From positions 186,001-250,000 of the forward strand of contig NZ_JAFEMW010000005.1 of assembly GCF_016892625.1 (NCBI RefSeq): 64,000 nt of DNA. The letters run 5' to 3'. A model generated the notes under the pieces. It was not told the DNA's origin. It did not search any database and was given only the letters and a program-made list of their open reading frames with translations. Both the position numbers and the translations under genes were made by a program. Positions 38,207 to 43,262 of the stretch are shown piece after piece (position 1 is the first letter of the stretch; each line of letters begins with the position of its first letter). Source of the stretch: Brevibacterium sp. RIT 803. Lineage in GTDB: Bacteria; Actinomycetota; Actinomycetes; Actinomycetales; Brevibacteriaceae.

Positions 38207-38220
38207 GTTTCACGTGAAAC
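38207..38220. other. parS site 1
   Basis: Perfect GTTTCACGTGAAAC, 17 bases after the CwlM-like stop codon. The distance to the next site is 546 bases, the widest gap in the array. Confidence 0.92.
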
Positions 38221-38752
38221 GCGTGTTCGAGAGACCTCAAACTTCGAGAGACCTCGACGCAGCTTGGTAGTCCACGCCTGTTCCGACAGTGGCTGCGATC
38301 GAGCAACTCCAACCACTCGCAGATTGCTGTCCTCTTAGCCTGAAGACTCTTCGTTGCGTCGTGCCCGCGATCCTGCGTTGTGCCCGCGATCTTGCGTTGT
38401 GTATCGCAACATACGCATTTTCGTTAAGCCGGGACGATCACTATCGCGATCAGCGAAACGGTACACAGACCCATTTGTCACTCGCCCCCGTTCAGCACGG
38501 TTAAAGGCCATTTCGCGAATACGGCGCACCAGCCTGGATCCGAGGAGCTGATCTTTAAACGTCAACTACTCGGATTCGGTCAACTTGGTCACCACCGGCA
38601 CTCCGCTGTCAGTCCGGTTCGCGACCCGTACCGTGTCAAGCGACAGCACTACTACGGCGAATCCATTCGGTGCACCGATGACAACTCGCCGCACGAGTAC
38701 GGAACCATAGATCGATGCTGCCCAAATTGATCTACCGACTGACCCGAGAGAG

Positions 38753-38766
38753 GTTTCACGTGAAAC
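38753..38766. other. parS site 2
   Basis: Perfect GTTTCACGTGAAAC. From here the sites follow at 218, 225, 229 and 250 bases. Confidence 0.92.
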
Positions 38767-38970
38767 ATGCATCGACTACAACACACGGGCGGCGAGTCTG
38801 AGTCCAAGAACGCCTAGCAAGTAGTCCAACCCAAATCTCTGCATCGAGGGATGGCGGTCTCTGAATGCGACGAGCGAGCATCGACCAATCTAGCCTCTCC
38901 ATACAGCAACACGACGACTGAGCATCTGCGAACGTCGTTAGGCGACTAAACGCTGCACGAGATAGCTTCC

Positions 38971-38984
38971 GTTTCACGTGAAAC
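38971..38984. other. parS site 3
   Basis: Perfect GTTTCACGTGAAAC, 218 bases after site 2. Confidence 0.92.
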
Positions 38985-39195
38985 CTCGGCCCACACATGA
39001 GGACAAAACCCTATTGATCACGAACACCGTTTGCCTTAGCATCTCGGCAGCCGAATCGGGGTTCACAACCGATGATGGCTACTCGACCGGGGCAGAGTTG
39101 CCGATGCGGAACACACCAGACCAAGGAGCGACTTGTGCTCACTCCAAGGACGAGCCAACGCTGAACTGTGTGATCGAGGCGGCCTGTTCACCAAT

Positions 39196-39209
39196 GTTTC
39201 ACGTGAAAC
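39196..39209. other. parS site 4
   Basis: Perfect GTTTCACGTGAAAC, 225 bases after site 3; also preceded by T as in the 16-bp consensus. Confidence 0.92.
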
Positions 39210-39424
39210 TGCACTGCCTGCCTACGGATGACAATGTGCGAGTCGGCACTCGGGTAGGAGTTCGGTGGTAGACGGCGACTGCCCGAGCTAGGCACGAGGA
39301 ACAGGCTTCTGGACGTTCCGATGAGTTGCCACTAATCCTGCATTCGTCGGTCATTTCGCGAGCGAACCCAGATGGAAACTCATACTCGTCGGATGCGCGC
39401 CGACAAACGGTAGTGAGCCAAATG

Positions 39425-39438
39425 GTTCCACGTGAAAC
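39425..39438. other. parS site 5 (one mismatch)
   Basis: GTTCCACGTGAAAC, one change from the palindrome, 229 bases after site 4. Confidence 0.8.
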
Positions 39439-39674
39439 ATAAACAAGTCCCAATCGGGACTGCGGTGTATTGGACCGCGCCCAGCGACAATTGGGGCTAC
39501 TTGCGCAAGCAGTAACCGAACTGAGTACTGATCGCAGCGAATGCGCTGCACCTCAGCCGCATATACGGCAAGCTTGCTCTCTGACGAGCTATGGGCACTC
39601 ACCGCGAATCGACGGGCGGTTGGGCGCGAGAACTGGTCGACACTCAACTCCTGAGGCAGCCCCTCGTCGGTGTT

Positions 39675-40516: not shown

Positions 40517-40760
40517 CTCTTCGAGAAGAAGAAGATTGTCATCAGCCACCCAGTAGTCGAGGTTCAGGCAAACGACCATATGCGGAACTCCTACTTGGAG
40601 CTCCTTATGCTGCAAGAATCCTTCACGATCGAAGCCGCACGCCTGAAGTTCAACACTACCGGTCACTTTCATATCGATCTCGCCACTCGACTACCATCCG
40701 CTGCTTGACAGTACAAGGTCTTGCCTGCATAATCGCCAAACGGCGAATGGAATGGTGGAT

Positions 40761-40774
40761 GTTTCACGTGAAAC
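40761..40774. other. parS site 9
   Basis: Perfect GTTTCACGTGAAAC, 258 bases after site 8; preceded by T. Confidence 0.92.
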
Positions 40775-41012
40775 CAACGGCCATCGCCCGCCTAGCAGAC
40801 ACATGTAGGACCGGATTCGACAGTGCCGGCATCGGGGTCATATGCCGCGGAATTCGTATCCTCGCTCGTCAACCCTGGTCAACAGTTGGATACGGAAGGC
40901 CCGGTTCGTCCTTAACAGGGACCCCTACTACCGACTTCACGCTATCCTGCGCACCATGAGCAGATACGAATCACCCTTGGCCTCGATGCCCGGGCAATCG
41001 GAGTGTTCCGTG

Positions 41013-41026
41013 GTTTCACGTGAAAC
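41013..41026. other. parS site 10
   Basis: Perfect GTTTCACGTGAAAC, 252 bases after site 9. It is the last perfect site before parB. Confidence 0.92.
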
Positions 41027-41210
41027 AAGTGCTCCGGAGTGTACGCACGTGGGTGTCGATGCAGATGAGGTAGATCCATCGCTGAGAACGAATCAACCAC
41101 CATGGCAGCCGCATGACGAAATCACGCTGACCCGCCTCAACGAGCGATGACACATTGGCCGACACGTGGAAGCTTTGAGAAACTCAGCCACGATTGCCGA
41201 ACGATGACCA

Positions 41211-41226
41211 GTGGATAACGTGAAAC
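41211..41226. other. Degenerate parS half-site overlapping a DnaA-box-like sequence
   Basis: GTGGATAACGTGAAAC. The right half ACGTGAAAC is a perfect parS half; the left part GTGGATAA is a near DnaA box. It lies 200 bases after site 10. Confidence 0.3.
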
Positions 41227-41451
41227 AACCGTGAAAGGACGGACCGGACGCGCCGGCCTGACGACCACGGGTGGTCTTCCCCGACTACCCAGACCATGCG
41301 GGAGGCCAAATACGGAGGGCCCGATTCTCAGGTGCTCGGGGTGACAGTCAACGGACCCAAGAGCCGCGTCACACCCTCACGGAATAGGGACCGATCAACT
41401 ACCGACATGAACTGCCTACACCGACACCACAAAGTAGCAACTCTTGAATAC

Positions 41452-41499
41452 AAGTTGGGCGGGTGACGATGAACAATGTCATCATCACCCGCCCAACTT
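41452..41499 (-). terminator. Terminator after parB
   Basis: AAGTTGGGCGGGTGA (41452-41466) pairs with TCACCCGCCCAACTT (41485-41499); the inner six bases extend the stem to about 21 bp with one mismatch and a 6-base loop. It starts 17 bases beyond the parB stop and closes the parA-parB transcript before the parS island. Confidence 0.8.
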
Positions 41500-41516
41500 C
41501 AAACGACCAGAGGCAG

Positions 41517-43262
41517 CTATTCCGCCGGCGCCTCAACTCCAAGCAAGGTGAGGATGCGATCGAGATCGTCTTGGTTCGCGAACTCCACGCTCAGCTTGCC
41601 CTTCTTCTTTCCGACCGTGATGTTGACCTTGGTGTCAAGACGATCGCCCAGGCGTTCAGCAACTTCAATGAACTGAGGGGCAACACGGGTGGTTGCACGT
41701 GAAACATTCATCGAGTCGCCACGGTTAAGAAGTACTACAGCTTCTTCCGACGCTCTCACAGAGAGGCCCTCAGCAACTATGCGCTGAGCAAGAATCTCCA
41801 TGTGCTCCGGTTCGCGAAGACCGAGGATCGCACGAGCGTGTCCTGCCGATATGACGCCAGCAGCTACACGCCGTTGGACCAACGGGGGCAACCGAAGCAG
41901 GCGAAGCGTATTGGAGATCTGAGGGCGAGAACGTCCGATACGTTCGGAAAGCTCCTCCTGTGTGCACCCGAAGTCCTCGAGCAGCTGGCCGTAGGCAGCA
42001 GCCTCTTCCAATGGGTTCAGCTCCGCTCGGTGCAAGTTCTCAAGCAGAGCATCCCGCAAGAGGTCTGTGTCATCGACGTAGCGAATGATTGCAGGGATGG
42101 TTGAAAGACCTGCGTCTTTCGTCGCCCGAAGACGACGTTCGCCCATGATGAGTTCGAAGCGTTCGTGATCGCTTGGCTTCTGCCGGACAACGACCGGCTG
42201 CAGCACACCGATCTCGCGGATGCTGTGGACAAGTTCACTGAGCTGATCTTCGTCAAAGAAGGTACGTGGCTGACGAGGGTTGGCATCAATACGGTCGACG
42301 TCGATCTCGCCGAATTCCGTATCAGGGATCGAGTCAACTCCGGCAGTCCCTGTATCCTCGTCCGGTACTGAGTCCTCGTCTTCGTTAACGGAGGCTGGGC
42401 TCGACGAGGCCGTCGAAGGCGTCGAGGCTGGATCTACTTCATCTGTAGTTGCCGGGTCGTCTGACGCGGTCTCTTGTCGAGCCTCATCGAAGATCTCATG
42501 ACCCGACCTGTACACCCCGGGATGTGTCTCCAGAACATCGTCGGCCAGTGTCGACTCCTCGTCCTTTTGATCCGCGGTCAAGTCCACGGGTGTCGCTTCG
42601 ACGTCGGGCTCAGCAGTACCAACGCCAGAAACCTCCAAACCAGCTGTGCCGGCGAACTCCGATTCAGGAGTCCGATCGACACCGGCAGTCGCGGGTGCGT
42701 CCCTCTTCGCCTTGGTGTTCGAAGCACGGCTTGCAGTCTTGGTTGCTGTCGAGGTCTGAGCACTCGATTCCGCAGTCGCCGACTTCACTGAAGAGCTTCC
42801 TGTCGCCATGGTGTTCGCTGCGCTGGTTTCGGCAGTTGCGGACTTCGTCCCTGAAGCGGCCTTCTTCTTCGTCGTCCGAGACCCGGCAGGCTTCGAGGAG
42901 GTTGACCCAGTTGCTTTCTTCGCAGACGCACTCTTGGCTGGCCCACTCTTTGGAGCCGTGCTCTTAGAAGTGGTGCTCTTCGACGGCGACGACTTAGGCG
43001 CAGATGCATCCGCCTTAGCGGTCTTCGAACTTGAAGACGTGGATGAAGATCCGGCCTTAGGCTTACGCCTTCGTGAGGACTGCATGGAGGCTGCAGGATC
43101 CGTCCGAGCGGACCGAGGTGCTTTCGGCTCTTCCGAGGTCTGCGTGGCCTCTTCAGGCTCGCCACCGGAGAAGAACACGTCAACTGGTCGATCGCTCGAC
43201 GCCGCATCCGGAATCAAAGCGCCTAAGCCACGACCCAATCCACGCTTCCTGCGTTCAGCCAC
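41517..43262 (-). CDS. parB: Chromosome partitioning protein ParB with long insert
   Basis: ParB is a CTP-dependent DNA clamp that loads at parS and spreads. The product is 581 residues; most chromosomal ParBs are 300-380. The N-terminal ParA-contact peptide (RRKRGLGRGLGALIPD, residues 4-19) is intact. A Ser/Ala/Lys-rich basic segment (about 60-195) and an acidic segment (about 196-315) follow. The catalytic/CTP domain starts near 318 (DVDRIDANPRQPRTFF), with GERRLRA at 374-380, ENLHRAELNPLEEA near 408 and the parS-binding helix-turn-helix around 430-455. The C-terminal dimer domain ends GVEAPAE. The start overlaps the parA end by 8 bases. A one-mismatch parS lies inside the gene at 41692. 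Confidence 0.95.
   Translation of the reverse strand: MAERRKRGLGRGLGALIPDAASSDRPVDVFFSGGEPEEATQTSEEPKAPRSARTDPAASMQSSRRRKPKAGSSSTSSSSKTAKADASAPKSSPSKSTTSKSTAPKSGPAKSASAKKATGSTSSKPAGSRTTKKKAASGTKSATAETSAANTMATGSSSVKSATAESSAQTSTATKTASRASNTKAKRDAPATAGVDRTPESEFAGTAGLEVSGVGTAEPDVEATPVDLTADQKDEESTLADDVLETHPGVYRSGHEIFDEARQETASDDPATTDEVDPASTPSTASSSPASVNEDEDSVPDEDTGTAGVDSIPDTEFGEIDVDRIDANPRQPRTFFDEDQLSELVHSIREIGVLQPVVVRQKPSDHERFELIMGERRLRATKDAGLSTIPAIIRYVDDTDLLRDALLENLHRAELNPLEEAAAYGQLLEDFGCTQEELSERIGRSRPQISNTLRLLRLPPLVQRRVAAGVISAGHARAILGLREPEHMEILAQRIVAEGLSVRASEEAVVLLNRGDSMNVSRATTRVAPQFIEVAERLGDRLDTKVNITVGKKKGKLSVEFANQDDLDRILTLLGVEAPAE
41692..41705. other. parS site 11 (one mismatch, inside parB)
   Basis: GTTGCACGTGAAAC, within the parB coding sequence near codon 520, where it encodes Val-Ser-Arg-Ala. 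It lies 679 bases after site 10 and 479 after the degenerate site at 41213. Confidence 0.72.

Follow-up and report, generated by a model that had tools for sequence, protein, structure and literature searches.

The window analysed here is a 64,000-nucleotide stretch of the genome of Brevibacterium sp. RIT 803 (GCF_016892625.1, contig NZ_JAFEMW010000005.1, positions 186,001 to 250,000 of the forward strand), which carries a dense array of parS sites beside the partition genes parB and parA. ParB loads at parS as sliding cytidine triphosphate (CTP) clamps and attracts SMC. Judged by its sequence, the array is an ordinary chromosomal ParABS centromere of Brevibacterium, and we consider it likely that a local hot spot of substitution surrounds it, one that is probably of mutational origin and would be caused by the ParB-parS complex. 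The 14-bp sites are kept between sister species while the DNA between them, together with the fourfold degenerate sites of the adjoining genes, diverges faster than the rest of the region.

The parS array beside parB

The main counts were made with the pattern GTTTCACGTGAAAC at no more than one mismatch. Eleven such sites lie between 38207 and 41705, nine of them perfect and two (39425 and 41692) with one mismatch, exactly as the original prediction had placed them. With up to three mismatches the window has 14 matches against 1.97 expected, the maximum in 100 shuffles being six. The 4.48-Mb assembly (13 contigs) contains the same eleven sites only, and the reversed pattern, used as a control, has none, so that the compact chromosomal centromere proposed beside parB does hold every parS of the genome at this stringency. 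Ten of the sites fall in the 3,326-bp gap between the convergent genes cwlM and parB and the eleventh lies within parB. The features are as follows, the numbered parS sites being pattern matches.

37054..38190, + strand, cwlM-like N-acetylmuramoyl-L-alanine amidase (PF01471 and PF01520), left border; its 3' half is in the fast zone, by its fourfold gradient
38191..41516, no strand, parS array without recognised genes, with hyper-divergent filler; GC content 0.55
38207..38220, no strand, parS 1, perfect
38753..38766, no strand, parS 2, perfect
38971..38984, no strand, parS 3, perfect
39196..39209, no strand, parS 4, perfect
39425..39438, no strand, parS 5, one mismatch (T4>C, the most frequent variant in crown arrays)
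39675..39688, no strand, parS 6, perfect
39995..40008, no strand, parS 7, perfect
40242..40255, no strand, decayed parS with three mismatches, aligned with a perfect parS of B. aurantiacum XU54 (G005)
40503..40516, no strand, parS 8, perfect
40761..40774, no strand, parS 9, perfect
41013..41026, no strand, parS 10, perfect
41213..41226, no strand, decayed parS with three mismatches, matching perfect sites of genomes G046 and G002 by position only (-307/-308 from the parB stop)
41517..43262, - strand, parB (ParB_N, HTH_ParB, ParB_C; PF02195, PF17762, PF23552 and TIGR00180 over cut-off)
41692..41705, no strand, parS 11, one mismatch, within the parB coding sequence
43255..44181, - strand, parA, overlapping parB; the listed ParA/MinD-type ATPase matches are all under the curated cut-offs
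47709..49463, + strand, dnaA (PF00308, PF08299), marking the oriC side, 6 kb from the array

Divergence of the DNA between the sites

Named relatives assign the genome to Brevibacterium, and among the ParB matches listed the nearest belongs to B. aurantiacum XU54, at 92% identity. Kilobases 16-38 and 42-64 kb of the window are 90-98.5% identical to this genome where aligned, and BLAST could align 34% of the array to it, 14% to G046 and 5% to G002. The filler was aligned with MAFFT and calibrated by simulation; another aligner failed to separate filler from shuffles per block. In the full alignment with G005 the filler is 59% identical, compared with 42% when shuffled and 93% in the parS columns; for fourfold sites, taken from 45 genes, identity to G005 is 87.1% (approximately 0.14 per site). 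According to the simulation, an identity of 59% corresponds to approximately 0.6 substitutions per site, 55% to approximately 0.68 and 73% to approximately 0.33. As comparators, the window offers 22 further intergenic runs: 18 were at least 95% aligned in G005, 18 in G046 and 17 in G002, and the median identity of these well-aligned runs was 94.5-96.7% across the three genomes (94.5% to G005). By these identities the filler has diverged from G005 roughly four times as fast as fourfold sites and roughly ten times as fast as the median well-aligned intergenic run. The original prediction did not include this rate difference, which becomes visible only in comparison with relatives.

This is not peculiar to one comparison. 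Across 19 overlapping pairs of genomes at 81-87% fourfold identity, the filler was 42-73% identical, and in 18 of these pairs 7-10 of 9-11 parS sites were kept in register, so the expectation that spacing would be kept while the filler drifts was borne out in the arrays of sister species; in G035/G043 the filler was at the random level and 5 of 12 sites were kept. In the three pairs worked out, the spacer rate was approximately 2-7 times the fourfold rate, the ratio being about seven for G036/G027 (far fourfold identity 92%) and about two for G016/G017. The transition/transversion ratio was 0.77 in filler and 0.6-1.5, by bin, at fourfold sites, a comparison confounded by saturation.

Acceleration of fourfold sites in the flanking genes

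The acceleration does not stop at the borders of the array. Pooled over 19 close pairs, fourfold identity on the left side was 69-80% within 600 bp of the array and 82-87% further away. On the right side it was 70-79% over the first 900 bp, 77% for the remainder of parB and 89% for parA. For 11 Brevibacterium pairs that share no genome, the distance at less than 1 kb from parS exceeded that at more than 2 kb in every pair (ratio 2.0-4.4, median 2.5), and the ratio was 1.6-4.0 (median 2.4) when parB was left out. The two fastest of 14-15 genes were parB and cwlM in nine of these 11 pairs, with yidC or murJ intruding in the other two, and dnaA and dnaN, which lie nearer the origin, were close to the remaining distant genes wherever a pair offered enough sites. 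The window itself gave near/far distance ratios of 2.3-2.8 in five of six side-by-genome comparisons (the cwlM and parB sides against G046 and G002, but only the cwlM side against G005). When all 630 pairs of 36 genomes, which therefore overlap, were classed by distance, near sites were less identical than far sites in 20/20, 69/69, 87/87, 197/197 and 244/257 of them, in order of increasing distance. Fourfold GC content was 0.58-0.68 in cwlM for bins up to 1.1 kb away from the array, 0.69 in the parA bin closest to it and 0.72-0.75 at greater distances, compared with 0.546 for the arrays, a gradient that would fit an excess of AT-biased mutation.

A divergent locus could also arise at a normal mutation rate if imports, or a barrier to homogenising recombination, kept deep alleles here. 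Recombination does occur in the window, where kilobases at 8-15 kb are 99.4-99.7% identical to G046 and a block at 8218-13580 (8.2-13.6 kb), apparently exchanged between species, has a fourfold identity of 52-68% to G005 (neighbours approximately 90%) and 98-100% to G046; the parB side against G005, which is slow, likewise resembles local exchange. However, the tree of the near zone (cwlM 3' and parB C-terminal codons) has 22 strong splits, all of which were compatible with parA and with cwlM 5' and 18 with trxB, which is about as well as trxB and parA agree with one another (24 of 27), and this agreement with parA speaks against recombination. The near-zone tree was 1.7-2.1 times longer than the trxB and parA trees over all codon positions. 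Moreover, parS sites stay in register between sister species, and the acceleration remains at far fourfold identities of 53-66%, too distant for homogenisation. We therefore regard the recombinational account as improbable.

The fast zone follows parS

parS was counted in 57 genomes of the genus, parA was placed in 56 of them (one match each) and 56 loci were retrieved. Three genomes were left out of the crown and basal statistics: G051 for lack of a parA match, G012 because cwlM was not reached and G038 because its contig is cut. All 36 crown Brevibacterium genomes in which both borders were seen carry 8-13 sites, counting any that is internal to parB, within and next to an intergenic stretch of 2.3-4.1 kb between cwlM and parB. 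In 35 of the 36 this array holds every parS of the genome at no more than one mismatch, the exception being G032 (8 of 9). Of the 55 genus members in which parB was located, 51 have a parS with up to two mismatches within parB, 150-210 bp from its stop. In some basal species, among them B. luteolum and B. gallinarum, the gap is less than 0.3 kb and six parS are spread over parB, parA and rsmG and the DNA around them; in other basal species the gap reaches 2.4 kb.

L036/L037, the only close pair among the basal species, has its parS sites within parB, parA and rsmG and in their surroundings. Here fourfold identity was 50-53% at less than 1 kb from parS, 78% at 1-2 kb and 83% beyond. The parA proteins of this pair are 98% identical and their fourfold sites 55%, compared with 99% and 82% for yidC. 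The ratio of the fourfold distance of parA plus rsmG to that of distant genes was 3.25, as opposed to 0.61-1.38 in ten crown pairs, in which the median distance of parA and rsmG to parS is more than 2 kb. The fast zone thus moves with parS between clades, the basal side of the comparison being mainly this one pair.

These data bear on the idea that only constraint is relaxed, such that the spacer evolves at the true neutral rate, selection slows fourfold sites and the other intergenic DNA, and there is no hot spot. The comparator intergenic runs do contain promoters, synonymous sites can be constrained and fourfold GC content is lower near the array. Against this, parA and rsmG have fast fourfold sites where parS is in or beside them and normal ones otherwise, at basal protein identities of 98% and 89%, and the pooled gradient within cwlM runs from 69-80% in its last 600 bp to 82% further in. 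Relaxed constraint alone is thus an unlikely explanation, about on a par with imports. Positive selection for spacer change, for example through centromere conflict or the avoidance of recombination between repeats, would account for the very high rate and for the depletion of short gaps (15 of 247 below 100 bp against 58 expected), but leaves the synonymous gradient within cwlM and parB unexplained, and we regard it as very improbable.

Our preferred reading remains a mutational hot spot at the centromere. On this reading, every parS would serve as a loading point from which ParB slides as a CTP clamp; ParA would move the loaded ParB, and ParB would bring in SMC, a gene for which was found in the genome. 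Selection retains the 14-bp sites, mostly 100-600 bp apart, and holds little other spacer sequence. The ParB-parS-SMC complex would most likely raise the local mutation rate, for example by hindering repair or through error-prone synthesis or disturbed replication. ParB binding at these sites, the mutational cause and the repair mechanism are all inferred.

Several observations weigh against this reading. The rate evidence is divergence between species, with one genome per species, and fourfold sites are not perfectly neutral. The parB side of the window was not fast against G005 (93.1% near, 89.8% far; ratio 0.65), perhaps through local exchange. Four comparator runs (1-1861, 6908, 14960 and 18597) align only 1-45% to G005, and the run at 11934, in the interspecies-exchanged block, aligns but is 61.9% identical. 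ParB is expected to spread further than the fast zone of approximately 1 kb found here, reaching up to 16 kb to each side in Corynebacterium glutamicum (PMC7083940). The basal arm depends mainly on L036/L037: all 13 basal pairs with both bins (of 14 listed) were less identical at 10-100 bp from parS than beyond 1 kb, but these pairs share genomes, some of their bins contain just 2-4 sites, and most of the pairs approach saturation.

Two further genera of the order were also compared. In genus g11 one pair of arrays was 74% identical at 87.9% fourfold identity and another 45%, near the shuffled level, at 87.8%; the near/far ratio exceeded one in six of six pairs, although all usable near sites are in parB, which confounds the trend with the gene. 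In genus g6 the arrays of five pairs were 50-81% identical at fourfold identities of 78-88%, and the gene trend is weak (rho 0.07-0.81) and helped by rnpA, so g6 was dropped as a second clean case. A broader reading, in which the effect tracks parS and would extend to other actinobacteria, is given somewhat less than even odds.

Spacing between the sites

The start-to-start steps from parS 2 onwards are 218, 225, 229, 250, 320, 247, 261, 258, 252 and 200 bp, counting the three-mismatch copies at 40242 and 41213, which reproduces the series first read from the sequence. That reading also placed decayed copies where a period would predict them, and both copies do fit decay: the copy at 40242 aligns with a perfect parS of G005, and that at 41213 agrees with G046 and G002 in position only. 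The suggested quasi-periodicity holds insofar as the gaps of the window are more even than random (coefficient of variation (CV) 0.45 vs 0.84 under random placement, p 0.014), but there is no fixed period and spacing differs between lineages. With the ends fixed, gaps were more even than random at p<0.05 in 24 of 36 crown genomes (29 of 36 with two mismatches allowed). When each of 26 lineages was represented by its median genome, the CV was 0.52 vs 0.83 (Fisher combined p 9e-16; 16 of 26 below 0.05). Among 247 gaps, the depletion of those below 100 bp noted above was accompanied by one of gaps above 600 bp (13 observed, 34 expected). The spacing is therefore one of repulsion with upkeep rather than a period.

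A structural code, in which a period of approximately 250 bp results from selection or from ancestral tandem amplification of a unit, is unlikely, though marginally less so than the recombinational account. Steps are near 250 bp in G000 and G005, gaps are over-dispersed in 26 lineages and recent tandem copies exist in G006, G035 and possibly G007. On the other hand, gaps are quite different in other lineages, the units of G000 are dissimilar (best 14.5 vs 13.5 when shuffled) and sister spacing is explicable by a low indel rate alone. Strict 250-bp periodicity was rejected, over-dispersion alone being general. An ancient tandem-unit origin was likewise rejected, six of nine genomes tested having no residual unit similarity. 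The indel:substitution ratio in filler (0.034 in G016/G017 and 0.027 in G026/G048) is close to that of other intergenic runs (0.013-0.021), the comparator indel and identity (94.3-94.8%) figures coming from 14 of the 22 runs, picked among well-aligned ones. Spacing is held between sister species because indels are rare, and selection on it there is superfluous as an explanation.

Recent tandem duplications are clear in G006 and G035 and weaker in G007, and the first two suggest that new parS sites can arise through local duplication. In the opposite direction, the G005 alignment connects the DNA left of one parS with that right of the following parS across a gap of approximately 200 bp, which would fit the loss of a unit through exchange between the two sites.

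Comparison with known centromeres

Canonical parS sites were present at no more than one mismatch in 138 of 149 genomes across the order, and tight clusters occur in further genera (13 sites in 2.0 kb in G193; nine in 2.4 kb in G115). In genus g11, 20 loci carry 2-9 sites each, at 3.2-5.7 kb downstream from where parA starts. Myxococcus belongs to an unrelated phylum. In Myxococcus xanthus, approximately 22 parS are packed into approximately 3.1 kb near parAB and close to the origin (PMC3899335), much like the Brevibacterium array. The view that such compactness is unusual was therefore not upheld, since it is common to all 36 crown genomes, to other genera of the order and to M. xanthus (PMC3899335), and because similar clusters occur in other Micrococcales and in Myxococcus, the compact array is of a known type. 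C. glutamicum differs in that ten parS, nine of them intergenic, lie within 35 kb, 73 kb from oriC, in a ParB/SMC-loading region (PMC7083940), whereas those of Brevibacterium lie within 3.5 kb, 6 kb from dnaA. In our search of openly licensed PMC text, no literature treating parS together with ParB in Brevibacterium was found.

The closest parallel for the rate comes from Saccharomyces, in which CDEII is described as evolving 3-4 times faster than unconstrained DNA, with mutation blamed (PMC3155921). As in yeast, the binding elements of Brevibacterium are conserved and the intervening DNA is faster than nearby weakly constrained DNA; the yeast point centromere differs in being eukaryotic and histone-based and in being supported by within-species polymorphism, while the Brevibacterium case is known from interspecies divergence. 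No report of a raised mutation or evolutionary rate at bacterial parS was recognised in the titles and abstract openings of the 10-15 papers listed per search of openly licensed PMC text. Rapid centromere evolution is a long-standing puzzle that has been argued mainly from eukaryotes, in terms of drive, gene conversion or mutation. The same pattern in a bacterial centromere, without meiosis and with defined 14-bp sites, would point to the centromere complexes themselves, and the idea is directly testable with existing parS and parB mutants, such as those published for C. glutamicum (PMC7083940). In practical terms, parB, cwlM and their neighbouring genes are poor molecular clocks in Brevibacterium.

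Site variants and other features of the locus

Among one-mismatch parS variants in crown arrays, T4>C accounts for 64 of 116. ParB is described as binding half-parS, with half-sites GTTCCAC and GTTTCAC (PMC7022226), and the commonest crown variant is the GTTCCAC form, here seen at the level of sequence. The array of locus L106 (G021) has no perfect parS, with nine one-mismatch and six two-mismatch sites. G023 has 16 parS at no more than one mismatch genome-wide, of which only two are within 12 kb next to parA and one more is on another contig. Family f7 had no canonical parS at no more than one mismatch in any of the ten genomes sampled (G062, G079, G093, G107, G120, G133, G146, G159, G172 and G185), nine of which have parA, and its parS word has possibly changed.

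Within the array, 27 stop-free frames of at least 60 codons showed no sign of coding conservation against G005, G046 and G002. Their short protein matches were 29-60% identical in G005 (among the matches listed), three were found in G046 and none in G002. The longest frame, of 241 codons, slightly exceeds the shuffled 95% point of 223 and weighs against the absence of hidden genes. No RNA family reached its gathering threshold between 30000 and 56000. One further feature lies 3' of parB:

41452..41499, - strand, long hairpin, probable terminator (21-bp stem; minimum free energy -40.6 kcal/mol, z -7.6)

This hairpin has one difference in G005 and is part of a conserved block at the right end of the array, beside otherwise unconserved DNA.

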